Positions 5,283-60,295 of a stretch of DNA of 64,000 nt are shown one piece after another. This DNA comes from Chloranthus sessilifolius (taxonomy: Eukaryota > Streptophyta > Magnoliopsida > Chloranthales > Chloranthaceae). The stretch spans positions 69,583,604 to 69,647,603 of the forward strand of contig CM037587.1 of the NCBI GenBank assembly GCA_021018995.1, written 5' to 3'. The number at the start of each line of letters is the position of its first letter. The stretch's first letter is position 1. Position numbers and translations under genes: made by a program. The notes under the pieces are model-generated. The model did no database searches and was not told the origin of the DNA. It was given only the letters and a program-made list of their open reading frames with translations.

Positions 5283-5830
5283 AAATGAGCCTCACACAGA
5301 TGTCGCAAGGTTCAAATTGAATCATAAAGAATGCTTCGCACAGCTGTCGCGGGCTTCGGAAGGTAGCACACCAACTGCTTGCGCCGTTCTCGCGCAGTTT
5401 GATGACAGAAGGAATTGAAAAGCAAACTTTGCGTGGTTCTTGCAAGGCTCAGTCATAAGCGCTCGTGAAGCACTCACGCAGCTCAAAAGAGGAGCCCTTA
5501 ATCTTTGCATGATTCACTGAGGAGAGAGAGCTCCAGGCGTTCCTGCGCGCAGCTGTCGCGCAATGGCCGTGGGATACAAACTTTCAAGGAACTGCTCGCA
5601 CGATCCAGAAGCCCATGCACATTGTTTCTTTAAGAGGATCGCCACGAGATTCATCAAGGAATGAGCCACGCGCGTAATCCCCGCACTATTCAAATGGAAA
5701 GAGTAATCCTATGGCGATCAGAGCATCCCCGCGATGACCAAAGTACCAATCCCGCAACTGTAAGAGCTTCAAGTCAAATCAACCCTGTGATGCTAATTCT
5801 ATCACGCGATAAGACCTGAATAGCCTTTCT
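5283..5830 (+). repeat. CTCGCG motif array in U3 of S
   Basis: Many variants of CTCGCGCAG, TCGCGAAG and CGCAGCTGTCGCG occur at intervals of about 20-45 bases. Many copies carry C-to-T or G-to-A changes at CpG (TCACGCAG, CTCGTGAAG), which is the expected decay of methylated cytosine. The array ends about 200 bases before the TATA box at 6026. Confidence 0.8.
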
Positions 5831-6517
5831 ACCTAGCGAGGCTCAGTTTCTTAACTTCTCCTCACTTCAGTAGGGGCAATCTGGGAATTTCCAGCAACTA
5901 GGGCATGCACTCTAATGCTCTAATCTCAGTGCACACGCCCCGAGACATCCAAGGAATAGAAATGGGCCATGATAGCATTGATAAATTAGGGTTTTCCTAA
6001 CCCTAATTCATAGAGAGCTGACTGCTATATAAGCCAAAGCCTAATTTAGGTTTAAGGGACTTGTCTTTTATACTCCTTCTTGAAATCAACTGTAGAATTG
6101 CAGTAGGCTAAGGTTAGGGTTTAGGCAATTTCTTTTTCCCTTTCTCTTCTCTCCATAGTCCAGCGCTTGCTGGCTATGTCTTCGTATGTCAATTTGGAAT
6201 AGATTTAATGGAGTTTTATAATAGGATTTTATGCATGTATGGGATTGGTGTTTTGTGAGTTGTTCTGTACAAGGCTGTTGCCTTGAGATCCTCCATTGCT
6301 AGGTTGTGTTGTAAGCAATGGAGGATTGTTTTTAAGGGTTCATTTTGATCCAAGTGACTTGTGTGTCCAGGTTAGGCACATTGCAAGCCTATGCCCCACC
6401 ACATGATCCACTAAATCTGAATCCCCATGGGAGCTTGAGCTGGTAGCCTTGTCAACATGGTAGCGATAACAATGTTCTTGTTCTATCATTGACCTCTGTG
6501 AGGAGGATAGCCTCTAT

Positions 6518-6982
6518 GGATAGTCTGTGACTATTTAAGTGGACAGATTATAGCCCTAGGGTGAGGCCAATCCATAGATCTAAGACAGATCCTTCTTCTC
6601 TGCACTTGTGCTTGTAGCCTTGTGAGTGATTGTGCAGAGATAGACTCCCCTGTATTTGTATAGACCCACCATCAGATGGCAGATCTGATCTGGCTGTAGA
6701 GATTATAGGCTTGTAAATGATCACTGCTATTTTTTTAAAGCAGTGAACAACTAGGCTTAAAAGCTAGTACTCAAACTCTTGCTGGTTCTGTGTGTCCAGG
6801 CTAGTGCACATTGCAAGCCTAGCCCCACACACAGAACTTTAGAGGTTGAGGTTCCTATGGATTCCTGAGCTGGTAGCCTGGATGAAGTAGTGACTACAAT
6901 GATAAACTTGTTCTGACCCATCTCTGGACTGTGGTTCCCCTATTGGATAGTCTGTGACCATTTAAGTGGACAGGTTATAGCC
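6518..6982 (+). other. Two copies of the conserved LTR hairpin in S
   Basis: Copies are at 6518-6555 and 6945-6982, about 427 bases apart, inside two similar leader modules that look like an old tandem duplication. The inner stem is TCTGT/ACAGA in the first copy and TCTGT/ACAGG (allowing a G-U pair) in the second. Both lie downstream of the TATA box, so they would be in the transcript. Confidence 0.65.
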
Positions 6983-7589
6983 ATAAGGGATTGGAACATC
7001 GCACAGGGGTGAGTTGGATCCTTTCTCCTCTTTGGTGATAATGTAGCCATTGGACATGATTTCTATAACAGCAAATCTGAGTCTGAGTTATAAGACCCAT
7101 CAGATCTATACCTAATAACTTACTTCTCACCCTTTTATATTTATTTTCTCACACTCCATCATTCTTCTCAACCCTTTCTGTAGTTTAGGCATTAGGTTAC
7201 CTTAGGATTTAGATAATAGTGACCTTAAATCCCCTTCCATTTAGGATTTTCAAATCTGTAGCCAGATCTGGAGGGCCTATTAAAGATAGCTCCCTTGGAG
7301 CTTTAGATCAACTTTCCCTGTTGGACAAACTCTTACTTATTAAAACTTGCTACAACAGGCCCTTTATCTTGCAGGACTGTGTATTTTTAGGCTTGCTGCT
7401 CTATAGTTTTCAATCCACCTTTGATTCATTTTTACTAACCCCATTCTTTTCACAGTCTCCAATAAAGTCAGTAGCAAGCAACCTAAAATATCCAAACAAA
7501 AATGGAAGTGGAAGGTGATCAAACTCTAACCCTAATCTGCTAGAGCTCATAGCTGATTCAAGTTGAAGGAGCGATATTTTTCTAAGTTA

Positions 7590-7597
7590 TATTTATA
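7590..7597 (-). promoter_or_regulatory. TATA box of A's 3' LTR
   Basis: TATAAATA on the minus strand, directly downstream of the CTCGCG array in transcription order. The equivalent place in A's other LTR is near 38035. Confidence 0.5.
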
Positions 7598-7794
7598 GCG
7601 TATATATTCAGTCATTGATGCCTTGAGTAAGAGAAGATTAAACACTAATTTTATGGCAAGCGTAGCTTTGTTACAACCCTCAGATGCCTCAGGATGTGTG
7701 CATGGAGATCATGGCCTCGGGATGTGTGCCCTAGATATGAGGAAATCCCCAAAAGGTCCCTAAGAATGGAATTAAAAGTGGAGAGCCCGAGCTT

Positions 7795-8470
7795 CGTGGG
7801 CCTGACATTGGTTCTTCAATTCATTCGCGTAGTGTACAGAGTGTTTGTGAGATCAGATTTGGCTTGGTAAGCTCCTTGCTAGCGTAGAAGGCTTTGAATC
7901 GTTGTGCAACTGCTTTTCTCTAAACTGCGCTCACATGGAAGAGTTTGCAGTGCTTTGGCTATACTCGCGCAGCAGAGCTTCAGAATTTTCTGTCGTGAGG
8001 ATCTCGCAAAGATGAATTTACCTTTTACCAGGCTCCTTGTGTAATGGGTAGAGCAGCCCGAGCAGTGTAGGTTTTGGCTTTCATGTGCTTGAGAGCTGCA
8101 TAAGAGAAATTCTAAAGCTCTCTCTCCTCTTGAGCTACGTGAGAACTTCGCGAGCTTGCTTGATTCTTTTATATAACTTGGTTTCACGAGACTCCGTATG
8201 CGACTGCTTGAGACTTGATCCCTACGAGAGCTTTGCGAGTACTCTGAGTGTTGATAGCAACTGAAGTGCATGACTACTACGCGAAGCAGTTCTCTGAGGT
8301 TAACTCCTTCACTGAGCACGCGAGTTCTCTTGTGCTATAGGTATCAGCTGCGCGAGGTGGCTTTGCTGCAGATTTAAACAACACAAGGAAACCTTTGTGA
8401 CTGTGCAAGGCAATACTTCTGCACGTCTGCTGCAATGCATATGCAGCTGTTGCAGCTTTCTCCATTCATA
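7795..8470 (-). repeat. CTCGCG motif array in U3 of A
   Basis: Repeated variants of CTCGCG(C/A)AG and CTGCGCGAG at irregular spacing, upstream of the TATA box at 7597. The open frames across the array (146 and 62 residues) follow from base composition and are not genes. The truncated 5' LTR of A keeps only the TATA-proximal edge of this array (38224-38362). Confidence 0.75.
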
Positions 8471-8748: not shown

Positions 8749-8758
8749 CCCCAAACCT
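8749..8758 (-). other. Polypurine tract of A
   Basis: AGGTTTGGGG on the minus strand, immediately before the TG of the LTR. This is the plus-strand primer site. The same sequence adjoins B's 3' LTR. Confidence 0.75.
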
Positions 8759-10330: not shown

Positions 10331-12281
10331 TTACTCACTTGGTTCTGTTGCAATTAGGTTAACTACATCATTGGCATACCTTGCCACACCCCCAAACCTA
10401 TGAGGACCAGTGTCCTCACTATTTGAGAGATAAGGGACTTGTGCAGCAGGGGAGCTGTGTGGGATGTTAGTGAGCTGAGGCTCACTCTCATCATAGTGGA
10501 TTGGAGATGGAGGTGATGGTGATGGTAGATCAGTGGGTATAGGGTCTAGCATGGCTGTTGTTTCTACAATAGAGGTGGTAGTGGGGATTGGGATGAGCTG
10601 AGAGGTTGGGATAGGTTCAGGAAAGGTAGTAGAAGTGGTGGTTGGGGGCTCTTGAAGTTGAATGGACTGAGGTAATGGGGTAGGGGCTGGTAGGGTAATG
10701 GGCTGGGGAGTTTGAGTGGGGGCTTTGGTGATCTGTGAGGCTTTCTTTTCGGTGTATGTTTGTTTGACTAGTGGGCTGAGATGAGCAGGGAAAATGAGAG
10801 GAATTGGCTCAGGTGTGGTTATAGGTAAGGTAGTTGTGACTGAGGAAATGGGTAAAGGTACAGGTATAGATGATGTGACTGTGGAGGTTTGTGGGGTTAG
10901 GGTTATGGTAGTAGCTGGCATGGGAATGGAGGTGAGTGTGGAAGTAGTGCTGATAGCTGATGATGGTAAAATGGGTTGTGATGGGGATGGGATTGTGGCA
11001 ATAGATATGGTAGGGATGGCTTGCACCATGGAAGTGGTTGCTTGAGAGTTAGTAGCAGAGGTGGCAGCTCCCTCTGAATTGTGGGGGCTGCTTGAGCTAG
11101 CAACTCCTCTTCCTCCTTTTTCTTCTTCTCAATTAATGTGTCACTGATCCCCCACTACTTCTTTCCACACTCGTTGGGGGCCAGGCTGAGGGTCTCCTCA
11201 TTCATCTGAAAGTGGTAGCCCCCCAGGTGTAGCAGGGCTGTAATGAGCTTGCAATAAGGCAAGGCATGGGGCTTCTGCTCTCTTTTAACCTTCTCATGGA
11301 TGTCTTTCATCCCTTCAAAAATCAACTTTGCAGCATCAATGTAATAGTTGCAGTAGAAGGAGTAGAGGGCATCAGCAATTGGAGACCTCCTCCCTTGTTG
11401 GTGCCTAGAGCAATATACATTCTTTCTCAGAACCCCATCCATAAACCTCATACTTGGAAGCAAGTCTCTCTTCCTAATTGATACCCCAGAGGTTGTGATC
11501 CCTCGAGTGAGCTCTTTAGTAATCTCAGGGATGGATGCAGTCAAAGGTGCACCCAAGCCACATTCTGGTCTGTATGTTGCTAGTATCCAAAGAATTTTAG
11601 CAATTGTTGCTTGCTTGAACAACATCTCAAAATCATCAATCAAGTACCAACAGAGCTGGGTTTCCATCATCCCCTATCTTCACCCTGATGTTTTGATAAA
11701 ATAATTACACTAGTCTAGGGAAGACTAGCTGCAATGGGGGCCTGAGCAGGGGTAGCAGTGATGCCTTGGTGAGGTATTCTATTGATACAGCAGTCTCTGG
11801 TTGTTCCTCAAAGAATGCCTTATGAAAGGCAGTTTAAGCTTCAAGCTTGATGGAAGCCACAATCTCAGAGGGGGTTTTGAGTGACTCATCCTTAGAGTCT
11901 TCCTCTTCGGCAACCTTAGGGACAACTTCATTGGCCTTTTTCTATTTTTTCTTGGATTTCTCAGAGCTCTTAATAGTAAGGGGTGGTCTTTGGCCCTCTT
12001 CTTGGTGCTGCTTTCTTCTTGACCACAGGGGCATCAGAGACCACAGCCTTGGCCTTCTTCATAGGACCAGCCCTCTTTTTAGGTAATTCCACTTGGGGCT
12101 CAACAGGTGGTGTAGGAATCTCAGAGGTCTCCACAATGGAGACCTCTGCAATCCTCACAGATTTCGTAGTGGCCACAGGGCTGCCAGTAGGGGAGGGATT
12201 CAGCTTGGCAACCAAGGTATCAATAAACTTTGAACCAATGGCCATAGGTAAACAACTTCTCAGAAATTGGTCTTGAAACAC
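10331..12281 (-). pseudogene. Env-like ORF of element A, broken
   Basis: Several frames follow each other down the minus strand: 12281-11970 (Lys/Pro-rich, basic runs such as PKKRAGPMKKAK), 11670-11155 (171 residues, globular, MMETQLCWYLIDDFEMLFKQ start) and 11103-10331 (Pro/Thr/Ser-rich tail of about 230 residues). The place after integrase and before the 3' UTR is that of the Athila env-like gene. No membrane segment or fusion motif is clear, so the name reflects position only. At least two frameshifts or stops separate the pieces. The Thr/Pro-rich tail could be an O-glycosylated stalk or simply disordered. Confidence 0.6.
10389..10399 (-). other. Internal polypurine-tract copy in A
   Basis: AGGTTTGGGGG followed by TGTGG on the minus strand, about 1.65 kb before the terminal tract. 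It matches the terminal tract plus the first LTR bases. B and C have it at the same relative place. Confidence 0.6.
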
Positions 12282-12617: not shown

Positions 12618-12681
12618 TATGTGTGTGACCTCATGCCTCACGCGGTTCTCGCTAGGTACTCATGGGGTAAAGCCTTCTCGC
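12618..12681 (-). repeat. Internal CTCGCG cluster of A, part adjoining the env-like ORF
   Basis: Variants CTCACGCGGTTCTCGC and CTTCTCGC occur at the edge where B inserted. The cluster continues at 22523-22945 on the other side of B. In A's own orientation it lies directly upstream of the env-like ORF, separated by a CT-rich leader-like stretch (12600-12282). Confidence 0.65.
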
Positions 12682-12889
12682 TGTTAAGACCTGAAAAGTA
12701 CCACTTTTCACCCCTTAACCTTTGATTAGACCCTCAGCCATCTAATAAGTTCTTGTTAAGAGTTTTATGTAGGTAATAATCAGCAGTGAAATAAGGTCAG
12801 GAATCCTGCTAAGGAGCCTATTTTGGCACCAGAAGTCCCTCAGAAGGATGGTCTCTGAATCCATACCTGAAATGAGCCTCGCGCAGCTG

Positions 12890-13585
12890 ACCCAAGCTTT
12901 AGAGGATTCCGGAGAAATATGCCTCGCGCAGTCCAACTGAGCTTCCCAAGACTTTACAACAACTTCTTGCATAGTTGAGTCACTGAAGATCTTCAGAAGC
13001 ACAAATTTGCGTAGCTCTCGTGAAGCTCAAGAGTAGAACACATCGCGCAGTCTCACACAGTTCAAAGCAGACCTCTCTCAACCTCGCGCAGTTCGCTCAA
13101 AACGGTTGAGGAGAGAGAGCTTCAGAAGACTCTATGCGCAGCTGTCGTGCAGTAGCCATGGGATGCAAATATCAGAAGAGAACTCCTGGCGCAGTTCTCA
13201 CGCTATTCAAGAAGAAAGCATCCTCGTGAAGACAGAGCCATCCTCACGAAGATCAATTAAGACATGGAACCTCGCACAGTTCAGAACTCATTAAAGCCTC
13301 GCGAGGAAACCTGTGAAGTCCATTGAAGAGAAGTGCTCGCACAGTTCTCACTCTATTCAAATCCATCCTCGCAAAGATCAACCCAGCGAACCGTGCGACT
13401 GCTTCAACTCCAACCCTGTGACATTTGAGGCTTTGATGTCTACTCAACCTCGTGAAGCCCAATCCAGCGAGAGCACAATTCTCTATCGCGCGACTGCTTG
13501 AAGAGCAAAGCAAGGAAACCTCGCGACGGTTGAAGCTTCAATGTCAAACCATCCTCGCGAAGAACAAGAGGTACCACGCGACAAG
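12890..13585 (+). repeat. CTCGCG motif array in U3 of B (5' LTR)
   Basis: Roughly twenty or more variants of CTCGCGCAG(T/C), CCTCGCGAAG and TCGCGCGACTGCTTGA are spread over 0.7 kb. The palindromic core is TCGCGA. Many copies are altered at CpG. The ORFs overlapping it on both strands are compositional. The 3' LTR copy is at 20140-20900. Confidence 0.85.
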
Positions 13586-13796
13586 TATGGGAAATAATAG
13601 CTACCTAGCGATGCTCTGAACTTCAACTTCCATCGCTTCAGCAGAGGATGTTTTGGGAAATTCCAGCGATTAGGGCACGCACTCCCATGCTTAAATTTCC
13701 GTGCATGCGCCCCGAGGCATCCAAGGATCACTATTAGGCCACATGGCATCGTTAAAATTAGGGTTTCCTAACCCGAATGCCCCTCCACACCACTGC

Positions 13797-13804
13797 TATA
13801 TAAA
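13797..13804 (+). promoter_or_regulatory. TATA box of B's 5' LTR
   Basis: TATATAAA after a CACTGC context, about 210 bases after the motif array. It is conserved at 21063-21070 in the 3' LTR. Transcription should start shortly downstream. Confidence 0.7.
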
Positions 13805-17462: not shown

Positions 17463-17640
17463 CCTCGCGCATTCCAAATTGAGATTTGGGAATCTCTCAC
17501 GCAATTCACATAGAACATTTATTTCGCTGTCGCGAGCTTCAACAAATGCAGCAGAGTCTCTCGCGCACTTCAAGCTCCAACATCCATCATCGCGAGATTC
17601 AGTTATCTCGTGATCCCCTAGCCCGGCTGCGCGAGTCACA
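17463..17640 (+). repeat. Internal CTCGCG cluster upstream of B's env-like ORF
   Basis: Copies such as CTCGCGCATT, CTGTCGCGAGC, CTCTCGCGCAC, ATCGCGAGATT and CTGCGCGAGTC repeat the motif of B's own U3. The cluster ends about 115 bases before a TATA-like TTTAAATA (17755-17762) and about 190 bases before the env-like ATG. The ORF that overlaps it upstream of 17834 is not coding. Confidence 0.8.
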
Positions 17641-19952: not shown

Positions 19953-22522
19953 TGTCTTAAGACCTAAAAAGTACCACTTTTCACCCCTTAACTTAACCTT
20001 TGATTAGACCCTTAGCCATCTAATAAGTTCTTGTTAAGTGTTTTATGTAGGTAATAATCAGCAGTGAAATAAGGCCAGGAATCCTGCTAAGGAGCCTGTT
20101 TTGGCACCAGAAGTCCCTCAGAAGGATGGACTCTGAATCCAGACCTCGCGCAGCTTACCCAAGCTTTAGAAGATTCAAGAGAAATATGCCTCGCACAGTC
20201 CAACTGAGCTTCCCAAGACTTTACAACAACTTCTCACGCAGTTGAGTGACTGAAGAGTTTCAGAAGCACAAACTCACGCATCTCACGCGAAGCTTAAGAG
20301 TAGAACACATCGCACAGTCTCACGCAGTTCAAAGCAAACCACTCTCAACCTCACGCAGTTTGCTCAGAACGGCTGAGGAGAGAGAGCTTCAGAAGACTCT
20401 TCACGCAGTAGCCGCGGGATGTAAATATCAGAAGAGAACTCCACGCGTAGTTCTCGTGCTATTCAAGAAGAAAGCATCCTCGTGAAGACAGAGCCATCCT
20501 CGCGAAGATCAATTAAGACATGGAACCTCGCGCAGTTCAGAACTCATTAAAGCCTCACGAGGAAACTCGCAAAATCCATTGAAGAGAAGTGCTCGTGCAA
20601 TTCTCGCGCTATACAAATCTATCCTCCCGAAGATCAATTCAATGAATGCACAGCTACCGCGCGACTGCTTGAACTCCAACCCCACGACATCTGAGGCATT
20701 GATGTCTACTCAACCTTGTGAAGCCTAATCCAGTGAGAGCGCAATTCTCTACCGCGCGACTGCCTGAAGAGAAAACCAAGGCAGCCTCACGACGGTTGAA
20801 GCTTCAATGTCAAACCATCCTCGTGAAGAATAAGAGCTACCACACGACAAGTATGGGAAATAATAGCTTCCTAGCGAAGCTCTGAACTTTAACTTCCATC
20901 GCTTCAGTAGAGGACATACTGGGAATTTCAAGCGATTAGGGCACGCACTCCCACACATAAATCTCTGTGCACGTGCCCTGAGGCATCCAAGGATCACTAT
21001 TAGGCCACGTGGCATAATTAAAATTAGGTTTTCCAAACCCTAATGGGCCGCCACACCACTGCTATATAAACCCATACTTAGCTTAGGTTTAGATATCTGG
21101 GGAACACATCTCGTCTCTTGGAGCCTTGATCTGAGATCATTTTCCTTTTCTTTTGTAGCTTAAGTAGTTTTCTTTTTCTTTTTCCTTCTCTCCATAGTCC
21201 AGCACTTGCTGCTATGTCTTTGTATGCATTTTGAACTAGTTTAATGGAAGTTTTGTAATAGGATTTTACATTATGGGATTTATGTTTGAATGTGATATGC
21301 TCTGTGCAAGGCTGCTGCCTTATGATCCGCCATTGCTTTGGCTGTGATTCAAAGCAATGGAGGACTGATTCTAAGGGCCACTCAGATCCAAGTGACCTGT
21401 GTGTCTAGGCTATCATGGTCCTGTACAGCCTTAGCCCACCATTGGACCCACTAGATCTGAAATCCCCATGGGAGCTTGATCTAGTAGCCTTGTGACCATG
21501 GTGGTGGCAGTGATATTCTTGTTTTGTCTTGGGCTCCATGAGGAGGATAGCCTCTGGGATAGCCTGTGACCATTCAAGTGGACAGGTTATAGCCTTAGGG
21601 TGATTTTAATCCACTGATCCAAGATGGGTCCTTCTTCTCTGCACCTGAGCTTGTATTAGCCTAGTGGGAGATTGTACAGAGGCAGACTCTCCTATATTTG
21701 TATAGATCCGCTATCAGATGTTAGTACTGATCTGGTTATAGAGATTGTAGGCTTGTGACTGGACCATTGTAGCCTCACTCAAGCAATAGACAGCTAGATC
21801 GAAGGTTGTACTCAATCTCTTACTGGTTCTATGTGTCTGGGCTATCATGGTCCTATACAGCCTTAGCCCCACACATATAGCTTTAGAGGTTGAGGTTCCC
21901 TATGGATTCTTGAGCTGATAGCCTGGATGAAATAGTGCCTACAATGATTAACTTGTTTTGACCCATCTCTTGATTCTGGTTCCCCTATGGGATAGTCTGT
22001 GACCGTTTGAGTGGACTGGTTATAACCTTGAGGGATTGAATCATGACATAGAGATGGGTTGGATTCTTTCTCCTCAATGGTGATAACGTAGCCATTGGAC
22101 AGGATTTCTATAACATCAGATCTGAATCTGAGTTATAAAACTCCTCTGATCTTGGCTCAATAACATACTTCTCACCCTTTTTTATTTATTTTCCACACTC
22201 TATCCATCCTTTCAACCCTTTCTGTAGTTTAGACATTAGGCTACCTTAGGATCTGTAAACTGAGTGACCTTAAACTCCCTTCCCTTAAGGACTGCCAGAT
22301 CTGTAGTTAGATCTGGAGGGACTACTAGAGATGGCTCCCTTGGAGCTGTAGATCATCTTTCCCTGTGGGGCAAACTCTTACTTATCAAAACTTGTCACAA
22401 TGGACCCTGTATCTTGCAGGTCTAGGACTTCTCAGTTGTGCTGATTTCATCCCCTATTTTATTTTGATTTTAAATTTCTTTTACCACAAATAAATAAAGG
22501 AAGCACAACTGGGGTAGCAACA
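19953..22522 (+). repeat. 3' LTR of B
   Basis: 2570 bp, homologous to 12682-15255 along its whole length. It starts TGTCTTAAGACC (a two-base insertion relative to the 5' copy) and ends GGGGTAGCAACA. Motif array 20140-20900, TATA box 21063-21070, hairpins 21557-21594 and 21990-22027. The second copy of the CTCGC duplication follows at once. Confidence 0.93.
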
Positions 22523-22945
22523 CTCGCGCAGTTTAAATGCAATCTCACAAGAAATGCTTTTTAAGGGACTCAGGAGTCTCGCGAGGTCACTCACATAGCT
22601 AATTTGAATCCGAGCCACATGAGAGGGCATGTGTATCCCTCGCACAACTGAAGCAAAGATCCTCATGAGAAGAATATATTCAGAGCCCAAAGGTTCTCGT
22701 GATGTAGTTAATAGTGCGAGCTTCAGAAGTCTGCTCGGGAGGCTCTCGCGGGGTACAAAATACATGATTTTAATTTTTTGCGCAGCTCAATGTCGCAGAG
22801 AAGGCAAAGACTCGCGAGGTTCATTTGCAGGCTTTCATCAGGTCTTTAGTTCGTGAGGCTCTTGTGAAGTAACAATTTTCATATTAGAGCCTCGCGAGAA
22901 GGCCCAAAAATGCTTGCAAGTGTGAGATTGGGGCCATTGAGCCTC
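22523..22945 (-). repeat. Internal CTCGCG cluster of A, upstream part
   Basis: Variants CTCGCGCAG, TCTCGCGAGG, CTCTCGCGGG, CCTCGCGAGAAGG and CTCGTGAAG lie between A's integrase and env-like ORF. B landed inside this cluster. Together with 12618-12681 it matches the internal cluster of B by position and motif. Confidence 0.75.
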
Positions 22946-23402
22946 ACGAGAAAGACATATCCACTCTTTCTCAGTGCTGCACATTAGTCTATGCATCAAT
23001 ATTGAAATGCACCATGCCATTGTGTAACAGCACCAACTTTCCTCACATTTCATCTATTTCACCACTAATAAGTTCATGCCTATTACCAACATATTCACAA
23101 AAAAAAATTCCTAGCATTCAAATGATTTTAACATACAACAGGTCCTTTCACATTTAAATTACAATAGGTCCATGAACATTTCAATCTCAGTAGGAAGCAT
23201 GCTCATGAAATTCAGATGACAAAACATTCACATCAACATCAACAATAGCACAACACAAAACAAAACATGCATATCAACAACAAAGCAAAGACAACACATG
23301 ACAGAGTTTTAAACAAAACAACATAAAATTTCAACAAGTATGGTACACAGTGTACAGAGCTATGGATCACTAAGTAGTAGGAGGTTCATAAAGGTGGATG
23401 GT
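22946..23402 (-). other. Spacer of A between motif cluster and integrase end
   Basis: AT-rich, with ACAACA-rich runs (23230-23340). No gene or repeat recognised. Confidence 0.4.
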
Positions 23403-32932: not shown

Positions 32933-33290
32933 CCTGTCGATAGGATCTAAAGGCTGAAAAAAGGAAGAAGTCGTAAGGATGGGAGAATTCAATAGGATCC
33001 GGAACCTATCGCGCAGTCGGAAACAAAACGGGAGCATCCTATCGAATGGTTGCCAGAGCTTGAACAAAACCTATAAAAAAGTTTGAAAACCTGTCGATAG
33101 GAGCCATAGTAGAACTTATCGAAACTTATTACGCATAAATCAACCTATCGAACACACCAGATGAAAGTTGTAGATGCTGGAGCTTTATTTTCAGCACCAA
33201 CCTATCGGAACCTATCGAAAGGATCTTGAATCCTAGTGAAAGGAATAAAAGGCCGGTTTGGAATCTGTCAAAAGCCTTAAGAACCTATCG
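32933..33290 (+). repeat. CCTATCGATAGG motif array in U3 of C
   Basis: Near-complete palindromes CCTGTCGATAGG at 32933-32944 and 33090-33101. Half sites CCTATCGA/CCTATCGG are near 33005, 33038, 33143, 33201, 33211 and 33283, with TTATCGAAA near 33115. Spacing is irregular, about 10-60 bases. The array ends about 260 bases before the TATA box. Confidence 0.85.
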
Positions 33291-33553
33291 AAATTGACTG
33301 AAGGACTTCTCAGAAAAGCTGTTGTTCATACACTACAAGTTGGTGACCTACTACACGCAATCTGAGGAACTTTGGTGGCCGGCACAAAGTTTCTTGAAGT
33401 GCCCTGGGAAACCCTAACCGACCCACGTGCTCTCCCCCAACTCTAACTAACTAAGAGAACCTTCTAGAAGGGGAATAAAAGAGGAAATGATAGAATTATT
33501 CCAGTTGAGCTGTGATTGGCGGGAAAAACAGATCCGATGCTGAAGGGGAGAGC

Positions 33554-38362: not shown

Positions 38363-38405
38363 TGAATTGGCAATCTGAAGTTTCGGGCTGACGTGAGGGC
38401 ATTTT

Positions 38406-38608
38406 GCCTAGCTTGTATAATATACATGCTAGGCCATTTCTGTAGGAATTTTGCCTAGCGTGTATAATATACACGCTACGCTATTTTCTGGAAGAATAAG
38501 GCCTAGCGTGTATAATATACACGCTAATCTAAATGGTCCCCATAGTGGGCTCTGAACTTCTCACAGGTATTGTACATATGCCTAGCGTGTGTAATATGCA
38601 CACTAGGC
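38406..38608 (+). repeat. D palindrome cluster 1 (5' LTR, four copies)
   Basis: Units at 38406-38434, 38453-38481, 38501-38529 and 38580-38608. The consensus unit is 29 bp: half site GCCTAGCGTGTATA, a central A, and the reverse complement of the half site. The fourth copy carries GTGTGTA/TATGCAC variants. It ends about 275 bases before the TATA box. Confidence 0.95.
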
Positions 38609-38883: not shown

Positions 38884-38891
38884 TATAAATA
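38884..38891 (+). promoter_or_regulatory. TATA box of D's 5' LTR
   Basis: TATAAATA in TTTTC context; the same box is at 57880-57887 in the 3' LTR. Confidence 0.7.
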
Positions 38892-39618: not shown

Positions 39619-41112
39619 CTAGCTAGTAGAGCTTCCCCCTGAAGTTTGGCCTCTTTTGTTATTTTTAAAATTTTCACTAACATATGTTTTTTTTTTTTTT
39701 CCTTTCATACCCACCCCTACGATTTCGTCAAATTTTCTTACCCCTATGATTCCGTCTATTTTTACTCACCCTTACTTTTCCGTCATTTACGTGCCTTAGC
39801 CGATTGGCAGGCCTACTTGAGCACTGTTTTTACTTTCACTTATTTTCAGTCATTTACATGCCTTAGCAGATTGGCAGGCTTACTTGCGCATTTACACACC
39901 TTAGCTATTTGGCGAGCCTACTTGAGATTTTAAATTCTTGCATTCATATCCTACCAGTTGACACCGGCCCGTAGCGGCGACACGGGATCATCACAACCCA
40001 TTTTTGAATCTAAGAAAAATCCCCTTTAAAATTTGAATATTAAATTTTAACCTTAAAAGTGAACTAAGGGTCTTAATTTAGTTTGCGTTGGGTAGATTTT
40101 AAAAGGGTAGGAATTTAGGTAGCAATATAAACTTCCCAATACTTAGTACGACAGTAGCCCCTAGTGGTGATGATTCGAAAAAGTACCACCCCATTCAGTT
40201 TGCGTCGAAGGTATATAGGGTGGGTGACCGATCCAGTTACAAATCTTAAAACCCTTGGGGGAGATCGTTAGTCGTTAGAAATCAACCTTGTATCCCTAGG
40301 TCCGGACAGGAATGACACACAGCAACAAAGAAAATCTGCCCCTGGAAGCACCACTTCCTGAAAACTAAAAACTCATACCCAATTCAAGCTTGTTGTTTGC
40401 TGTCAAAATATATTATATAAACTATTTTTGCCAAGCGTGTATAATATACATGCTAGGTCAAAAACCCTAGAATTACCCTAGCATGTATAATATACACGCT
40501 AAGTAACAAATCCTCATATTTTGCTTAGCGTGTATAATATACACGCTAAGCCAAAATCTTCAGATTTCTAGCCTAGCATATATAATACATATGCTAAGTA
40601 TAATTCTTGCTAGGCAGCTCGAATCTGAGGCCTTTTTCGTTTCCCCGAGTCCTCCACTTAGCGGTTTAGTCCCTCCGGCAGATCCCACACGTCCCGACAC
40701 CCAATACGCCCTCACCGGTAAAGAGAGGTCACCCTCTTATTGACTTTTTTCGAGGGATCGAGTTGTCGTGTGGATTCCTGTGCCTTCACATGGATCAAGG
40801 GACTTCCCTTTTATTCTTCCGAAGTGCATCAGGGTCTTGTCGTGGGAAATATTTGGGGTGTGAGCACAGCTCGAAATGGGAATTCCAAGGCCCCGAAACT
40901 CATTATAGAAAGGTTCATTATCTTTATCTAAAAATCAAAATAAACAAAAATTGAAAAAAAATTAATTAAAATTAAACTGAAATCCAAAAATAAAGATAGC
41001 TTGTGCTGCCGATGCAACGGCATCGCCTTACCCTCCGTCATCCCGTAGAGGGAGGAGAAGATGGGTTTTTGGTCCTCACCCAAGGAGCCCGTACCCAACT
41101 CGCCAAAAAACC
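39619..41112 (+). other. Leader of D
   Basis: About 1.5 kb between PBS and gag without convincing coding sequence. A TTAGC-GATTGGCAGGC-type word repeats near 39792, 39862 and 39902. The second palindrome cluster lies inside. Confidence 0.6.
40430..40598 (+). repeat. D palindrome cluster 2 (leader, four copies)
   Basis: Units at 40430-40458, 40476-40504, 40523-40551 and 40571-40598. The third has a C-to-T change in the left arm (GCTTAG) matched by G-to-A in the right arm (CTAAGC). The fourth has GCATAT matched by ATATGC. These paired changes keep the palindrome. The cluster is about 515 bases upstream of the gag ORF. Confidence 0.93.
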
Positions 41113-48130: not shown

Positions 48131-48199
48131 AGTGTCGAAATGAAGCCAACCATGATTGGGAAGAGGAATGAACCTACCTTCTGTCTCTAGTTTGAGGAA

Positions 48200-50689: not shown

Positions 50690-52336
50690 TTGATTTATGG
50701 AAAAGGTATGTGCAGTTCTAGGTCAACGACGTAACTCACACTTCAAAGCATGAATCTCGACGCGTAAAGCATCCTCCTAAGCATCCTGATCTGTCATCTA
50801 ATAGCCATGAAGGCTCTTATACCACTTTTAGGAAGCATCAGTAGCACCAAGAGCATCATTCAAGGCTCCTTCCAGACGAAGTACCTCATACTCTGCAAAA
50901 CTAGCTCTTGCTTCTGTGACATCTGCTCTGACCTTGTGTTTCTCTAACCATTCGTGCAGGGCCCGTTTCTCATCTGCTAGCAGCTCAATCCTAGCCAGAA
51001 GTGCTGGCTACTTCCTCGGCCAAGGCCCCTTTGCACCACTACTCCCTGCCTAATCCATGCAACGGACAGAAGGCCTCTCAGATAGCAGCCAGGCCTCATA
51101 CCCCAGAGAAGTTAAAAGAGAATTCCCTTACTCCAAGCCGCACATATGTGTCGACTGACGCATCTCCCAAAGAGCGGCTATCCTATCCAAGTCCCTTGAG
51201 GACCACTGAGAAAACATCAGTTTGCATAGGGGAGGTCTCTTCGAGCAGGGCACCTGCTGAGTATAACCAAACTGGCATAGTACCCGAGAAGGAAAATAAT
51301 GGGTGCTACTAGCCAAGCCAGGAAGGGTGATGCCCTCATGATCTCTAGATCAAACTACTAGGGAGGTCCTGTCCAACCATGGAAGCCTCCACACCAACTC
51401 AGCCTCAGCCAATCAAAGTTTCAGCTCGCACATATTCCCTCATGGAAACTTATGGCAACGGCTCAAAAAGTAGTGAGCCACCTCTCCACGAACCACATAA
51501 AAGCGGGGCATGAGCCCCAAAATGGCAAGATGCACCCCAAGCCAAACTTGGAGCAGAATGGTGCATCCCCGGAGTTACTCAACCTTGCCCAAAGTAAAAG
51601 CACCGAGACAATGGTAAAGCTTTGCCAGTAACATATACATTACAGAGCGACCCTCCTCAAGTTTTGTTAGCATATCTCAAAGTGCAAGAGAGAAGCTCTC
51701 TCCCCCAAGTGTAGAAAAGGACCTCTGAGAGAAGGCAGAGAGTGACTTTTACATTATGGATGTTTCTAACTAGCAATTTTTGCAAGCTTTCGTCCCCAAA
51801 AAGATCTCTTAGGAATTTCATAGAACAATTGGTCGGCCCATCGACAAAGCTTTTCGCATAATCTGCTTTCTTCAAACCCAAAGTCGTGTGGACGGCTTTA
51901 GCATAACCTAGTGTCAGTATTATCCTGGAAAGACCTCTATGCAGCTTCAAGCCCAATAGGTTGGGGAGTTCTTCAAGAGTGGGAGTTAGCTCACGGTTCC
52001 CAAAGCAGAAGACATGGGTATCCACGTCCAATGAGCAGCTGCAGCATAAAGGAAATCCCAAAGCAAAGGAATATCCAGGAAAGATGAGAGACAAGCCAGC
52101 CCGAGTTGATCCAAACCCGCAAGCTCGCTTTCATTCAGATTGTCGAGCCATTTCTTTGAAAAATTGGGCCCTGCGCCCAAAGAAGGAAGTGTAAAAGTCC
52201 CGAACCCCCCAAAAGAGGTAGGGTCGGAAAGTCGGTGCATGGTCATACAATTATGTTTTGAGAAATCACAATTCAATGTAGGATGATGGACCCACCCTCG
52301 GGAAAGAGAAAAGAAAAAATGACAGCAAAAATCCAA
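50690..52336 (-). pseudogene. Antisense accessory ORF 2 of D, DUF7745-like
   Basis: Down the minus strand: LDNLNESELAGLDQLGLACLSSF (52336 on), then in another frame 52094-51657 with TPTLEELPNLLGLKLHRG, KFLRDLFGD and LLSEVLFYTWGRELL. A helical, charged C-terminal region follows (51000-50690, RIELLADEKRALHEWLEKHK), probably coiled coil. The F-G-x-x-ELTPTLEE...LLGL pattern is that of plant DUF7745 proteins, which are distant from the plant mobile domain. A palindrome cluster lies 69 bases upstream. Broken by stops and frameshifts; function unknown. Confidence 0.55.
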
Positions 52337-52404
52337 AATCTAACTAGAAATAATGAAAGAGGGGGGCATTCTTGGGTCATAAAGACCCCACACTACCCAG
52401 AAAA

Positions 52405-52576
52405 TGCTTAGTGTTCGTAACACAAACGCTAGTTCAAAATCTCCCAGATTTTGACTAGCGTGTATATTACACAAGCTAAGCCAAATAGTCTCCAGAAAAT
52501 GCCTAGCTTGTATAATATACACGTTAGGCCATTTATGAAGAAAATTTTCCTAGCGTGTATATTACACATGCTAGGC
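52405..52576 (+). repeat. D palindrome cluster 3 (upstream of antisense ORF 2)
   Basis: Units near 52405-52434 (changed core, TTCGTAACACAA), 52453-52481, 52501-52529 and 52548-52576. Two copies have TATATTACAC in the centre in place of TATAATATAC. In the direction of the antisense gene the cluster lies immediately upstream of its first Met and of a T/C-rich leader. Confidence 0.9.
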
Positions 52577-53286: not shown

Positions 53287-55383
53287 TCATAATCTTGCAA
53301 GGGGAAGACAAAAAGAGACGTCAACTACATGGGAATGATACAAAGGCAAGCATATCCTCAAACTAACCAAAAAAAAAAAGAAGAAAGAAGGAAGAAAACT
53401 CACCCCCGAAACCAAATCAGGAGGAGGGACCCTAATTGCCTCAGCCGATATATGAGCCCGCTCTGACACATTTGTACACAGGCGTGAGAGGAGCACGTTG
53501 TCAAAACGCCTAAAGGTCCCCTGGGTCCCCACAGTCGAGGCCCCTGAGGCCACCACACAAGAAGGGTCTGAAGGACTAACACCTGACGCCTCTGTAAGAC
53601 CCGCCTCGACCACGTCCTCATCAGAATCCTCCCCTCCATCAAACTAAAGAAAGAGAAAGAAATCCAGTCAGTATGGAAAAATTAAGACAAAGAGGAATGC
53701 ATATACGGGAGAAAGAAAAGTGGAAGAATACTTGAGATCGTGGGCCTCCGAATGCCAAAAAGTTGGCACTTGGCACAAAGCGTGGGAAGAGGGACCGGTA
53801 TGGGAGAGACTCATACCACATCTGATACCCTCCATGCTCAAAGAGACCATCAACTAGGAGCACATGGCGAAGAAGTCCACCTGCAAGCTCCTCAATCATA
53901 CCCTCTGGTGACATAACATCCCCGGGATGACCCTGCAGCACCGCGAAGTAGTCCCGGTACTGATGCACCACCCTCTCCCCCAAGTAATACGCTATGACCC
54001 AGGAGCCATAAAAGAAGATAATGTGACAATCGATAAACAGTCCCACGGTAGCATGATCCCAGAAGGGGGATCTGACATAGGGATCTAAAGTCACCTGCTC
54101 GAAAAAGAAGGGCCCTATTAGTCAAAGCAATACCATCTAAAAACCCAAGGAAAAGAGAGAGAGAGAGAGAGAGGGGGGAAAGTGGATCCTGCTCTAGGAT
54201 CATTAGGTGAAACTGGGACCTCAGACCCAATTCCAGATGCTTCATCCCCTGGTCCCTGCGATGACTCTTAGCCAGCGGCTCATCAGGGGGTGTGTAAACT
54301 CGTTTGAGAAGAGGAGGGGGCCCAGCTAGAAATGTAAATATCCCTAAATCTGAAAGGATGAACAAACATGAAAATATGTCAAAAGAAAGTGAAAAGACAA
54401 ACCATGGGTGATGGAAAAATATTAAAGGTTACCTCGATCGCAGGCCAGAAGTCGAGAACATATGCCACATCCCCAACTGAGGCCCTGACCAAATTGGCCA
54501 TCAACACAGCATATCCTGCTCCCCTAATCAAAATGATGCACGTTCTCCCAGTTTCCCATTAGACTGAGGAGGGATAGTGAGATCCGGCCACCACTAGTAT
54601 TGGCGAGAATGGTCTTACGCAGCAGGAAGAGGAGCGAGATACGGGCGAGCATCAGTGCACGCTCAGGCTCAACGATGATATCCATATCCGGCTGGTCCGG
54701 GTCAACCAACTCATCAATATCAAACTGATCGACCAGCCAAGATAGTTTAACGTTGGAGCCAACCATATATCGGGAGGTGTGGTAATCCCCGATCAATTAA
54801 ATCACCTCTACCCAATTTTTATGTGAGGAGGAACCACAGGCATCCCTCCTATCCCGATCCCGGTAATCATAGACCAGTTCACTGGGGTGATGGTCATCTC
54901 GGCCATGGACATATGGAAAGTCATCGTCTCAGTCCAGAAATGCTCCACCAAGGCCTTCATCTATGCCATATCCCCCCTCATGGCCGGGCATGACAAGAAG
55001 TCCCCAAAGATGGCCTGGGCCAGAAGGAACATCACAACCTAGGGAAGACGAGCATAGAGGCGCTGGAGGTCGAACCAACCTCCGCGGAACATGAATGGGG
55101 GTAGGGGCTGCATAAAAAGAATAAGAAATGTCAGATTCAAATGCGAAGATGCCTAAGCAGAAAAGAATAGCCAAAGGATACATCTTTTACCTTGCTGGCT
55201 GTACCAAAGTTAGTGATATGGGTGTACTGCTGATGCAGTAACCCACGCTGAGCGGCTTCGCCTTGCATTTCCCACCAGTCGTGAGAGGAGAGCTGCACCT
55301 GAATAAGGTGATGCCCTCTAGCACCATAAGTCACATCGAGACCACCCTCATGACCAGGTCCTCTTCACTCGACATCCTAAAAG
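53287..55383 (-). pseudogene. Antisense accessory ORF 1 of D, plant mobile domain (PMD)
   Basis: Down the minus strand from 55383 (MSSEEDLVMRV). Exon-like blocks follow: WWEMQGEAAQRGLLHQQYTH; WFDLQRLYARLP; then FWTETMTFHMSMAEMTITP with NWSMITGIGIGG at 54935-54840, the signature start of the PMD (THTFHLPFGEMTITLED type); RALMLARISLLFLLRKTIL (54680-54600); and VGLFIDCHIIFFYGSWVIAYYLGERVVHQY (54050-53950). One clear intron is retained and others are likely near 54435-54335. PMD is the domain of MAIN/MAIL proteins, involved in silencing and genome stability, and is carried by several plant transposons. Frameshifts and stops make this copy a pseudogene. Confidence 0.72.
55108..55190 (-). other. 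Retained intron in antisense PMD gene
   Basis: GCAAG|GTAAAAG donor (55191/55190) and TTTTTATGCAG|CCCC acceptor (55108/55107), 83 bases, T-rich before the acceptor. Removing it joins QYTHITNFGTASK to PLPPFMFRGGWFDLQ in an open frame. The position and size are typical of a plant intron. Confidence 0.6.
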
Positions 55384-56146: not shown

Positions 56147-56269
56147 GCCTAGTGTGCATAATATACACGCTAGGCTTCAACTTGCTAGATATGGCCTAGC
56201 ATGTATAATATACACGCTAGGCATAAACCCTCCAGATATTGCCAAGCGTGTTTAATATACACGCTAGGC
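56147..56269 (+). repeat. D palindrome cluster 4 (upstream of antisense PMD gene)
   Basis: Units at 56147-56175, 56194-56222 and 56241-56269, spaced 47 bases start to start, close to consensus (GTGCATA, ATGTATA and GTGTTTA variants in the left arm). Confidence 0.95.
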
Positions 56270-57080: not shown

Positions 57081-58595
57081 TGTGGAAACCTAAATTTGGC
57101 CCAAGGCCCGATCGAAACATACTTCGAGAAAGGTGCACCCTCGAGCTTCTAATAGCACTTCCTAAATCCTTAGGAATCAACCCTAACCCTTAGAACCCCT
57201 CCCGAACCCGTTTCAAATCCTCCTAGGCAGTGGTTGAGAGGAGTGGTGCCAAGGCTCGTTTGGTCCTTTACTGGAACTAAATCATACACCATTGGAAGGT
57301 AGAGGTCCCCAGCTTTCCAACAAGCCAATAATCACCCTGATCTTAGTCATACACCAAAAGTTATGGCAATTTAAAGTTTCGGGCTGAAGTGAGGGCATTT
57401 TGCCTAGCTTATATAATATACATGCTAGGCCATTTCTGAAGGAATTTTGCCTAGCGTGTATAATATACACGCTAGGCCATTTCCTGTTAGAATTTGGCCT
57501 AGCGTGCATAATAAACATGCTAAGACAAATGGGCCCCACAGTGCGCTCTAAACTTCTCACAGGTACTGTACATATGCCTAGCGTGTGTAATATGCACGCT
57601 AGGCTTAGCTACAGTAACTGTGAGATTTTGCCCAAATTTTCCTTTTGGGGTTTGACTTGTCGACCATCCCAATGTTCAGGGTGGATTTCTTTAGGACTGT
57701 TGCACCCTCATTAACCCTTTTTAGAACCGTCTAGCCATTTGAAACCCCACCCTATCATCTATCATTGAACCCCATTCCCACCTATCAATAACCTTGAAAA
57801 ACTCAAAAACCTTAGATTTAGGATTACCTAATTGCTAATCCCATTAGCTCTTAAGTACCCCCCTAATCTACTCCTTTTCTATAAATAGAGAGGCACCTCC
57901 CCTTACTAATGGCTTGAAAATTTTCCAAGAGAGAGAAAAAGATTAAGAGATCCCCTTCTCCCCTTTGGTGCATTAAAAACCCATACAAACTCTAGAACTT
58001 TAGTTCATCTTTTACACTCCATTATCCATCACAAACATTTGAGATTTAGCTTGAACTATCCACTAGCCTTGTTCCTCTACCTCTTAGCAACCAAGCCTTA
58101 GAGGTTAGAACCCATCTTCCAACCCCTCAAGCCATCGGAAGGTCCTCAAGTGCACCTACACGAAGGTCCACAGCCATGCTACAAGGGCCCGAGAGCTCTG
58201 GCTCTCTCCTCTACTCCTCTACCTTCTTTACTTTTCCTTTATCCAAGGTTTTAACCCATTATGCCGGCAAATTTTTGGTGTTTTCGGAGAGCTTGATAGG
58301 ATCACAGTGCCTTCAGGAAAGAGGAAGTGTTGTTTTATTTATTTTTATTTTGGCCTTAACTAGAGACCGCTTCCGAGTGGGTTGATCGGGTGCCTAACAC
58401 CTTCTCGATCGATAACCGAAGCCCCTACCTAAGAGCCTTTGGCAATAGAGAGGTGAATCTGAGTCATACTTTTGCACTTTAGTACTTTTAATATTGATTT
58501 AGGTTTCCTGGGACACCGAAACCTCTAGGTGGCAACTTTAAAATTGTAGTAACGAGCGCATCATCGCAACGGACTCGCGAGAGCCCACGGTTGCA
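57081..58595 (+). repeat. 3' LTR of D
   Basis: Starts TGTGGAAACCTAAATTTGG, a usual Tat/Ogre LTR start, and ends CCCACGGTTGCA. Length 1515 bp. It has four palindrome units, a TATA box at 57880-57887 and a part downstream that matches 38384-39596. Confidence 0.88.
57402..57604 (+). repeat. D palindrome cluster 5 (3' LTR, four copies)
   Basis: Units at 57402-57430, 57449-57477 (consensus, full length), 57497-57525 and 57576-57604. Spacing matches the 5' LTR cluster. The last copy has GTGTGTA matched imperfectly by TATGCAC. Confidence 0.95.
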
Positions 58596-59734
58596 TAGTG
58601 CTGATACAAAATTCATAGTGTTTTTAAGCACATTTCAATTTTGCTTATTCTCATACAATGCATCTTGGTTTGCTACTTGGCACATTTTATATCATTGCAC
58701 TAGAACACATTGCACTTTAGCTCAAAATAAACTGGCATATTTACCATCTTGTGAGGAAGTGATTGAAGGCCATCTTTGGCTCGTTTGTTCCTAAAGTACC
58801 CCACCTCATACAATATTCCTTTTGGCACCCCTATTGAACTGTATTGAAAAATTACCCATTGATGTTTTTGATAAACCACAATAACCACATTATTACACCA
58901 TCACTATTTTGAGCCTTACCCCTCTATTTCTGAGAAATTAGGAATAAGGAAAGAAAAGAAATGGAGAACTAGTTAATGGATGTAAAGAGTGTGGTATTTG
59001 CTGTGATCATGTGGAAAATTATTCTGCAAAGAAAAAGGGAAGAAAAGGGGAAGAAAAAAAAAAGTGAAAATTAAGAAGTAAATATGAGGTGATGTCAAAG
59101 GAAAAAGGAAAATAGAAATGGAAGGAAAAAAAAAAAAAACTCGAAAATCAGATTAATCTCGTTTCCCTATATCTTAGATAATTTGAACCCAATTTTCCTT
59201 TCTTTCATAACCCCTACCTAAGCCCCATTACAACCCATAAAAATACCTTCTTGATCCAATCTTGATTGGTAAATGCCTTGTGGCAAGTGAGAGTGTAAAA
59301 TCTATGCAGTGTGATGTGACGTGCTTAGGATACAAACATCTTTTCAATATGAGATTCATTTTCATTAATATACCATGTTTTATCTTATCATATGAGCCCT
59401 TGTAGTTATATTATAATGCTCTCTCACATGTGTGTAAAAACTGAACCACTCATCGGAGCGATTCTATTTTTAGTGTACACCTAAGGTAATGATAGAGTCG
59501 AGATCCAAATATTCCCTTGAGCTTGTTCCCTGATAGAAAGATTTTTTTCATTGGTAAAGCACACACGACACTCTAGGTATGAATGGAAGAATTACCTGAA
59601 GATCAAGACATTAAACTAATTTGAATAAGCACTGATAACACTAGTATGGTTGTCCATTTGATATCAAGGCTTCACCGGTTAGGAACAATTGATAGTTGTG
59701 AAAATTAAGTTTGAACTAATAGGCTTTGAAGTTT
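58596..59734 (+). other. 3' UTR of E, upstream part
   Basis: Non-coding with purine-rich low-complexity DNA (59020-59145). No gene supported. Confidence 0.5.
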
Positions 59735-59842
59735 GTTGGTAACTTCACTGAAAACCCTCAAGAGACAACTCCTCTACTAGGGATCACCTAGGGGTTTAAA
59801 GGCTCATTGGATATGCTAAATGCAATCGTGCTCTTTACGAAA
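59735..59842 (+). other. Conserved 3' UTR block, copy in E
   Basis: CTTCACTGAAAACCCTCAAG, then CTACTAGGGATCACCTAGGG and a TTTAAAGGCT word, as in A, B and C, although the surrounding 3' UTR is much changed. Confidence 0.7.
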
Positions 59843-59924
59843 GTGGCATTTATTTTCTTAGGATGATAGCTTTATTTGCTTTGACATATTTTTCATTCTT
59901 TTTGCTCGAGGACTAACACAATGT

Positions 59925-59935
59925 AGGTTTGTGGG
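59925..59935 (+). other. Polypurine tract of E
   Basis: AGGTTTGTGGG directly before TGTGATATTTGCCG. Confidence 0.7.
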
Positions 59936-60109
59936 TGTGATATTTGCCGAAATATGACTATATTTTGTACCCTAATACCCACACTTAGCCATCCGATGAA
60001 AGGTTACATGGGAGCATTGGGCCATGGAGCCAGTGGAAACATTGAAATCCGCAAAGAGAATTGATGTGTCCAGCCACAACTTTGAGGATGAAGATGTCAC
60101 ATGCCATAA

Positions 60110-60295
60110 TCAATCGATTGAATTTCAGAAATCAATCGTTTGATCTGATGAAAACTATATCCCTCTTCAATTTGAATTTAAACTGACTCAATGGATTGAG
60201 ATCTGTAAATCAATCGATTGAATTCAAATTTAAATGAATCCGCCAAAATTCAAGTTTGAAATCAACCGATTGAATTTTGCAATTCAATCGATTGA
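60110..60295 (+). repeat. TCAATCGATTGA palindrome array in U3 of E
   Basis: Exact copies at 60110-60121, 60210-60221 and 60284-60295. Single-base variants at 60132-60143 (CGTT), 60188-60199 (TGGA) and 60262-60273 (ACCG). The 12-bp unit is its own reverse complement. The last copy is about 30 bases from the TATA box. Confidence 0.95.

Follow-up and report, generated by a model that had tools for sequence, protein, structure and literature searches.

The window analysed here, a stretch of 64,000 nucleotides from the 2.17-Gb genome of Chloranthus sessilifolius (contig C4, 69,583,604-69,647,603), contains nested long terminal repeat (LTR) retrotransposons, and our subject is the arrays of short repeated words found in the U3 (unique 3′) part of their LTRs and at further places inside them. 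The elements, labelled A, C, D, E, F and S, are located in Table 1. Their LTR pairs and pol domains identify A and D as LTR retrotransposons, as opposed to DNA transposons of the Mutator-like (MULE) type. Element A carries a gypsy pol (RNaseH and rve) and, after its LTR, at ~15262, a primer site, TGGCGCCGTTGCCG, which we take to be typical of Athila and which places A in that lineage. The pol of D contains, besides RT RNaseH, an extra plant-type RNase H (RVT_3, PF13456, E-value 3.6e-16), presumably a mark of the Tat (Ogre/Retand) lineage. A is nested within F and bounded by a 5-bp duplication, CTCGC, at 12677-12681 and 22523-22527, which indicates that the target of A's insertion was a CTCGCG word within F's internal array.

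The initial annotation, made from the letters of the window, had placed arrays of self-complementary words upstream of the TATA box in six LTRs (S, A, B, C, D and E). A scan for palindromic words of 10 or 11 bp, allowing at most two mismatches, covered 910 bins of 350 bp and compared each with 100 dinucleotide shuffles. Forty-four bins exceeded every shuffle, against about 9 expected by arithmetic, and 21 of these lie in U3 regions (four and three in the two LTRs of A, one in C, five and two in D, six in E). The others fall in three arrays inside D (five, five and three bins), in an array inside F (one) and in two arrays absent from the initial annotation (five and two), except for two bins, at 19111 and 28771, outside any recognised array. 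Support is strong for the arrays of D and E, partial for those of A and C, whose top words are non-palindromic, and lacking for S, which has no significant bin. The label B came without coordinates and was taken as the second LTR of A or as the minus-strand LTR at 7900-8420. The excess of palindromic words over shuffled sequence and their position upstream of a TATA-like box (distances in Table 1) thus stand for the U3 regions of A, C, D and E, but the arrays are not confined to U3, being present at three more places inside D and inside F.

Motif discovery carried out without any assumption of palindromy led to a revision of the words themselves. The top word contained a complete 10-bp palindrome in nine of 47 arrays, whereas 0.7% of random words do; three of these nine come from one piece, L045, and another two, from L052 and L056, are AT-rich and should be treated with caution. 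Within the window this held for one of 22 arrays, that of E, whose previously described word, TCAATCGATTGA, also forms an array above shuffles. The D array was missed because 12-letter words cover half a site; its 29-bp palindrome, also described before, occurs in four copies in each U3, above shuffles. The top words of A and C, GCCTCGCGCAGT and AACCTATCGAAA, are not palindromes, and palindromic or near-palindromic variants, CCTCGCGAGG and CCTGTCGATAGG, are interspersed among them, so that strict palindromy does not hold for these two elements. Similarly, CTCGCG(C/A)AG, proposed as a self-complementary word, is not self-complementary, and the proposed CCTATCGATAGG is present in the window only with mismatches, its exact form being absent. 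When the U3 regions of S and A were aligned, identity was 0.83 in columns 1 to 100, fell to 0.42-0.67 across the array and stood at 0.71-0.73 beyond it; it drops again to 0.46 just past the TATA box, indicating that faster change also affects sequence outside the array.

A single 29-bp palindrome makes up all five arrays of D, two of which stand on the 5′ side of antisense PMD-type genes. These antisense pieces, PMD-like and DUF7745-like, lie between pol and the 3′ LTR (51.6-55.4 kb), and a relative of the second gene, in L070, matches both PMD (E-value 5.3e-6) and DUF7745 (9.3e-4). In F, CTCGCG words occur in U3 and again at 22960-22523, where, the inserted A being set aside, the array is on the 5′ side of an open reading frame (ORF) related to Transposase_32. 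Accessory genes adjoin arrays in D, F and the genomic copies L058 and L059 described below, and perhaps in L040 and A. The earlier statement that no VANC-like gene was seen calls for amendment, since array-bearing elements carry accessory genes with arrays on their 5′ side; no VANC homologue was identified among the Pfam matches (PMD, DUF7745 and Transposase_32, with Peptidase_C48 and SWIM in L045), a search with a VANC sequence not having been made. Used as protein queries, the Transposase_32 ORF and the L040 ORF returned no relatives at E-values up to 0.001.

Table 1. Elements, arrays and gene pieces of the window (positions are those of the window; significance refers to the shuffle scan)
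Feature	Position	Strand	Remarks
A, LTR pair	12682-15255 and 19957-22522		90.7% identity; self-comparison
D, LTR pair	38368-39594 and 57364-58593		88.9% identity; self-comparison
S, solo LTR	5047-7499		self-comparison
F, minus-strand element	LTR pieces 3648-5046 and 7500 to ~8748, and 36520-38363	-	stretch past 7916 assigned to F on our reading
E, 3′ LTR			upstream flank similar to that of A
D 5′ LTR U3 array	38406..38608	+	4 copies of 29-bp palindrome GCCTAGCGTGTATAATATACACGCTAGGC, spacing 47/48/79 bp; first TATA-like box, TATAAATAG, 275 bp downstream
D internal array 1	40430..40599	.	4 copies, spacing 46-48 bp; between 5′ LTR and first long ORFs
D internal array 2	about 52404..52576	-	3 copies and 1 degenerate; directly 5′ of second antisense gene
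D internal array 3	56147..56269	-	3 copies; ~1.2 kb 5′ of PMD match
D 3′ LTR U3 array	57402..57604	+	4 copies; layout as in 5′ LTR; first TATA-like box 275 bp downstream
A left LTR U3 array	12878..13562	+	CTCGCGCAG/CTCGCGAAG/CCTCGCGAGG words; first TATA-like box, TATATAAA, 234 bp downstream
A right LTR U3 array	20145..20830	+	words of same kind as left LTR; first TATA-like box 232 bp downstream
A internal CTCGCG cluster	17464..17635	+	upstream of TTTAAATAC (~17755) and short ORF from ~17824; not significant
F minus-strand LTR U3	7900..8420	-	LTR start near 8748; decayed CTCGCG words; not significant
F internal array	22523..22960	-	CTCGCG/CCTCGCGAGG words; split by A insertion; one significant bin
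C U3 array	32933..33295	+	CCTGTCGATAGG (2 exact), CCTATCGAAAGG, CCTATCGAATGG and similar; gaps 21, 39, 33, 33, 32, 20, 25, 29, 53, 14, 21, 52 (at most 4 mismatches); first TATA-like box, TATATAAGG, 258 bp downstream
E U3 array	60110..60295	+	6 TCAATCGATTGA sites, 3 exact; three pairs 22 bp apart; first TATA-like box, TATATAAAC, 31 bp downstream
S solo LTR U3	5290..5560	+	scattered CTCGCG-like words; not significant
Array absent from initial annotation	about 1540..1805	+	GAACGTTCGAAT-type words; plus-strand LTR ending ~3467 before TTGGTATCGGAGCC
Second array absent from initial annotation	767..860	.	short; ATTAGTTGGACCAACTAAT-like words
D pol, RVT_1	46844-47134	+	
D pol, RT RNase H	47198-47494	+	
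D pol, RVT_3	47732-48067	+	
D pol, Integrase_H2C2	48191-48547	+	weak, E-value 0.036
D antisense gene piece, PMD match	54811..54960	-	PF10536, E-value 1.8e-6, below curated cut-off
D second antisense gene	51660..52339	-	open pieces 51660-52130 and 51989-52339; weak DUF7745, E-value 0.12
Transposase_32 open frame	11158..11673	-	PF20167, E-value 4.3e-7, below curated cut-off

Conservation of the D palindrome is marked: its majority identity is 0.908 over 18 copies, against 0.50 in the 15-bp flanks, and 0.906 against 0.50 over the 14 copies left without those of the 3′ LTR. Its arm pairs have changed on one side in 36 cases and on both sides in six, versus 4.1 expected, three of the six still being complementary. 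Regular spacing was also observed. For short words, the 138 adjacent gaps of 12 hand-picked arrays follow a period of 10.4 bp (R 0.65, equalled by 0 of 2000 jittered nulls), driven by gaps of 19-23 bp, and the 29-bp word of D mostly recurs at 46-48 bp, or 4.5 turns. Among the matches listed, four of six D-word pairs 47-48 bp apart are in opposite orientation. The CpG observed/expected ratio is 0.98 in the arrays versus 0.35 elsewhere in the window, partly due to the CG within the words. Conserved symmetrical words in diverged spacers, with preferred spacings and mixed orientation, lead us to predict that the arrays act as duplex DNA bound by protein; in D, a conserved palindrome without compensatory change would favor protein-bound duplex over hairpins. 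That U3 and the interior of an element carry the same word would further suggest a single regulator serving the entire element.

Across the genome, exact counts of the word and of its reversed form are 1,960 vs 40 for CCTATCGATAGG, 64,441 vs 79 for TCAATCGATTGA and 1,186 vs 0 for the 23-bp core of the D word, figures that reveal repetitiveness and not selection for palindromy, because high-copy elements inflate any word. Palindromy as such is addressed by the motif discovery above and by the mirror-word control below. Over 90 places of TCAATCGATTGA among the matches listed, 28 of the 66 adjacent gaps of at most 300 bp (28 of all 89) are of 22 bp. This word is followed by TATATAA within 15-45 bp at 1,683 sites, while the opposite order is found at 889; sites within one family are not independent. 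Since TTATATAA reads both ways, the two orders were compared on C1 below 139.6 Mb, where the matches listed give 100 and 49 places, 31 of them common, that is 69 vs 18 after removal of the both-way sites.

Two copies picked from the listing of words followed by TATA, L058 and L059, both carry 11 TCAATCGATTGA sites, TATATAA 9 bp further on and a long ORF with weak Transposase_32 similarity (E-values 0.0073 and 0.038). Further sites at ~2.0-2.2 kb, followed in L059 only by a second ORF of 109 amino acids, a third cluster and a 3′ LTR U3 array with TATA 29 bp on complete the layout, in which arrays are both internal and in U3; L061 is the matching 5′ LTR of one of the two. For D, eight loci chosen by their word correspond to seven places, L067 and L068 overlapping. 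At two of them (L067/L068 and L070), the array lies 5′ of a protein relative of D's second antisense gene (tblastn E-values down to 3e-30), and three (L069, L072 and L073) show the U3 layout of D, with TATAAATA 270-278 bp downstream. The array adjoins a stretch similar to the region upstream of the D PMD gene in L071 and L073, and L074 matches the 5′ internal region of D.

Arrays were then sought in twenty random 4-kb pieces. Sixty positions had been drawn on 12 of 32 contigs, and the opening 4 kb at each of the first 20 were examined. Bins with z>8 were 45 for palindromic vs 2 for mirror words (39 vs 1 without L048 and L056), those with z>5 were 61 vs 19, and those above all shuffles 76 vs 36. 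Six pieces contained z>8 bins, of which L048, a microsatellite, and L056, beside a TA repeat, were not counted as clear; clear arrays, with words other than TCAATCGATTGA, are thus present in four of the twenty (L040, L045, L054 and the unassigned L055). L040 displays the end of a chromovirus chromodomain integrase, an array of TGATCGATCA, a long ORF without Pfam match and a second array. In L045 (G000:C11:49594288-49598287), Peptidase_C48 and SWIM pieces are surrounded by three arrays in which AATCGATATCGATT recurs at intervals of mostly 22 bp; these arrays sit in apparent introns, a layout resembling that of VANDAL. L054 (G000:C15:73400719-73404718), which we take to be a Harbinger element, has a large TTCGATCGATCGAA array beside a DDE_Tnp_4 transposase piece. 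The array-bearing pieces therefore include one chromovirus and two DNA transposons. The core finding is real and wider than described before: the view that Athila and Tat both carry such arrays was too narrow, and family specificity holds to the extent that words often differ by family, but not for TCAATCGATTGA, common to Athila-like, Ty1/copia and other LTR elements.

Several known systems bear comparison with these arrays. VANC motif arrays occupy noncoding regions of VANDAL21 in Arabidopsis (Hosaka 2017, PMC5735166). In the portions of the papers cited, VANDAL/VANC shares with the present elements an accessory gene within the element, motif turnover between related families and a short motif, specific to the family, that is repeated as arrays at several noncoding places of a single element, namely introns and the region upstream of a gene (PMC5735166; Sasaki 2023, PMC10398659). 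Multiple arrays within a single element are found in D (five) and in L058/L059 (internal and U3). In contrast, the VANC21 motif, YAGTATTAY, has one orientation and on our reading is not self-complementary, whereas the window has palindromes ~20-22 or 46-48 bp apart; moreover, VANDALs are of the MULE type and the window arrays are in LTR retrotransposons. As no VANC homologue was identified, we class the arrays, known here from sequence alone, as putative motif-array control of transposable elements and do not assign them to the VANC system.

Retand provides a related precedent. According to the sections cited, Retand/Tat elements carry tandem repeats and antisense TRP28 genes between pol and the 3′ LTR, the latter predicted to bind DNA (Vicient 2025, PMC11963269; see also PMC7264820). 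The antisense pieces of D match PMD/DUF7745 instead, TRP28 (PF04195) being unmatched among the pieces scanned at E-values up to 1 or 5, and the D repeat is a single palindrome, found in the U3 of either LTR and again on the 5′ side of the antisense genes. Tnt1 has a repeated box in its U3. Like such stress-responsive motifs, the present arrays are fast-changing cis elements upstream of TATA in U3, but Tnt1-type motifs are described as answering host stress signals in U3, whereas the present arrays extend to the interior of elements and to different element classes. The host PMD proteins MAIN and MAIL1 have been linked to the DOWN promoter motif (Nicolau 2020, PMC7156037), which similarly ties PMD-family proteins to a promoter DNA motif; these are host genes, direct binding is not part of the evidence cited, and the PMD-like gene of D is element-borne. 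Insertion-site palindromes, as presented in the part of PMC6911290 cited, are a different phenomenon. No report of such arrays was found among the literature matches listed (titles and abstract starts, with subscription journals thinly covered).

Binding sites for a regulator, as proposed initially, remain our best reading of the conserved D palindromes, the regular spacing, the lack of compensatory change and the repetition of one word within an element. Tentatively, and stopping short of calling it probable, we propose that the arrays are operators for dimeric sequence-specific proteins on element promoters, with a regulator that would most likely be element-encoded and act in a VANC-like manner. 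Each array would be a cluster of sites bound by a dimeric DNA-binding protein. The targets would be the LTR promoter driving gag-pol and, in some elements, the internal promoters of accessory genes. The regulator, a candidate product of accessory genes of the PMD, Transposase_32 or DUF7745 kind, would recognise the word of its own family, keep the promoters open against silencing or activate them, and ignore other DNA.

A number of observations weigh against this proposal. The nearest TATA-like box is 740 and 1761 bp downstream of D internal arrays 3 and 2, and likewise distant from the second array of L058 (627 bp) and from the internal cluster of A (939 bp), so that promoters at the D internal arrays are predicted from position only. 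In a test of 27 PMD loci (L008-L034, three full-length frames left out; arrays within 1.5 kb), arrays with z of at least 7.9 lay on the 3′ side in five loci and on the 5′ side in none; with z of at least 5, the figures were nine and six. An AT-rich array is found 5′ of L005, a full-length PMD frame taken as a host gene. Most copies of D and E were selected by their word and thus reveal conservation of layout, not an unbiased association. The word TCAATCGATTGA also stands at the two LTR positions of a Ty1/copia element (just outside L062) with no accessory gene in the stretch read, as well as in L063 and in the copia-like L064 (Pol_BBD just under cut-off). To these are added the non-palindromic top words of A and C. 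Finally, gaps longer than 25 bp taken alone phase weakly (p about 0.03-0.04) and the 22-bp palindrome shows no helical phase (463/2000), so the 21-22 bp spacing could in part be due to tandem duplication.

The use of TCAATCGATTGA by unrelated lineages and the scarcity of strong arrays at the PMD loci sampled make a host factor a serious rival, one we regard as possible without being likely. Each family would have acquired, and would use at its promoters, clusters of sites for a homodimeric transcription factor of the host, with different factors for different families. Athila-like, Ty1/copia and other LTR elements indeed use TCAATCGATTGA with differing spacers before TATA, the copia stretch lacks an accessory gene, no strong array stands 5′ of the 27 PMD loci, and U3 regions are known to vary between plant LTR families, with differing regulatory motifs (PMC10794571, for the part cited). 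However, accessory genes or ORFs adjoin arrays in D, F and L040, and the many unrelated words of one genome would require many host factors. Plant transcription-factor sites are usually shorter than 22-29 bp, and the 29-bp and 22-bp palindromes exceed that length.

Three alternatives remain. That the CpG-bearing arrays are small-RNA or methylation targets, or a methylation-sensitive switch, instead of activator sites seems improbable to us: the CpG ratio (in part a product of the words themselves), the C>T and G>A changes at CG in D and the targeting of VANDAL noncoding regions by RNA-directed DNA methylation (PMC10398659, in the part cited) agree with it, but palindromy, spacing and the conservation of words against spacers are left unexplained, and words such as TGACGGTGGGTACCCACCGTCA carry CG just near their ends. 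Neutral tandem duplication of a short unit palindromic by chance could account for the 20-22 bp spacing of several arrays, for the weak phasing of longer gaps and for the 47-bp units of D, which are detected as tandem repeats. We consider it quite unlikely, given the divergence of D spacers (50% majority identity, against 91% for the palindromes), the opposite orientation of most of the D-word pairs listed, the excess of self-complementary over mirror words in random DNA and the presence of the same word in unrelated elements. Hairpin or cruciform signals in RNA or single-stranded cDNA, suggested by self-complementarity itself and offered as an alternative in the initial annotation, appear very unlikely, as the counts of one-sided and two-sided changes in D showed no clear compensatory excess, and this candidate was rejected for D.

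A more general form of the operator proposal, which we hold to be rather doubtful, is that self-recognition operators are general in plant transposable elements, fast-evolving element-encoded dimers of the PMD or Transposase_32 type reading palindromic arrays in Athila, Tat, chromoviruses, Ty1/copia, MULE-like and Harbinger-like elements, with VANC as one convergent case. The function of accessory ORFs in plant LTR retrotransposons is unsettled according to the parts of two reviews cited (PMC7264820, PMC11963269), and a palindromic word found both in U3 and beside accessory genes would offer these ORFs a concrete target. The data suggest that VANC-like sequence-specific control may be widespread, and the arrays could explain the fast change of U3. 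A set of words paired with proteins would be useful for studying the evolution of DNA-binding specificity and, even with a host factor as binder, a word of 64,441 copies would define a very large regulatory network.

PMD and Transposase_32 sequences are very abundant in the genome, with 20,277 first-look candidates for PMD (117 scored) and 13,856 for Transposase_32 (150 scored, many with long stop-free frames). At two PMD loci (L030 with L035, L033 with L037), the PMD gene is followed by TGACGGTGGGTACCCACCGTCA arrays with 34/39-bp spacing and then by opposite-strand pieces, which we read as a putative MULE transposase, weak FAR1/AFT matches being found for L035 only. At L032, a TTCGATTAATCGAA array precedes retroviral protease and reverse transcriptase pieces in L036. 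The short LTR element L063 (G000:C1:63945500-63951500) has repeats ~3.1 kb apart, each with four TCAATCGATTGA sites then TATATAA, and a Retrotrans_gag ORF between them. In the window, the array at 1540-1805 lies ~1.4 kb upstream of TATAAATA near 3263, its first TATA-like box being 103 bp downstream. The long ORFs of D hold a 98-bp tandem repeat (3.1 copies, 41686-41988), and a 119-bp tandem repeat (2.7 copies, 50122-50441) lies downstream of the D pol pieces.

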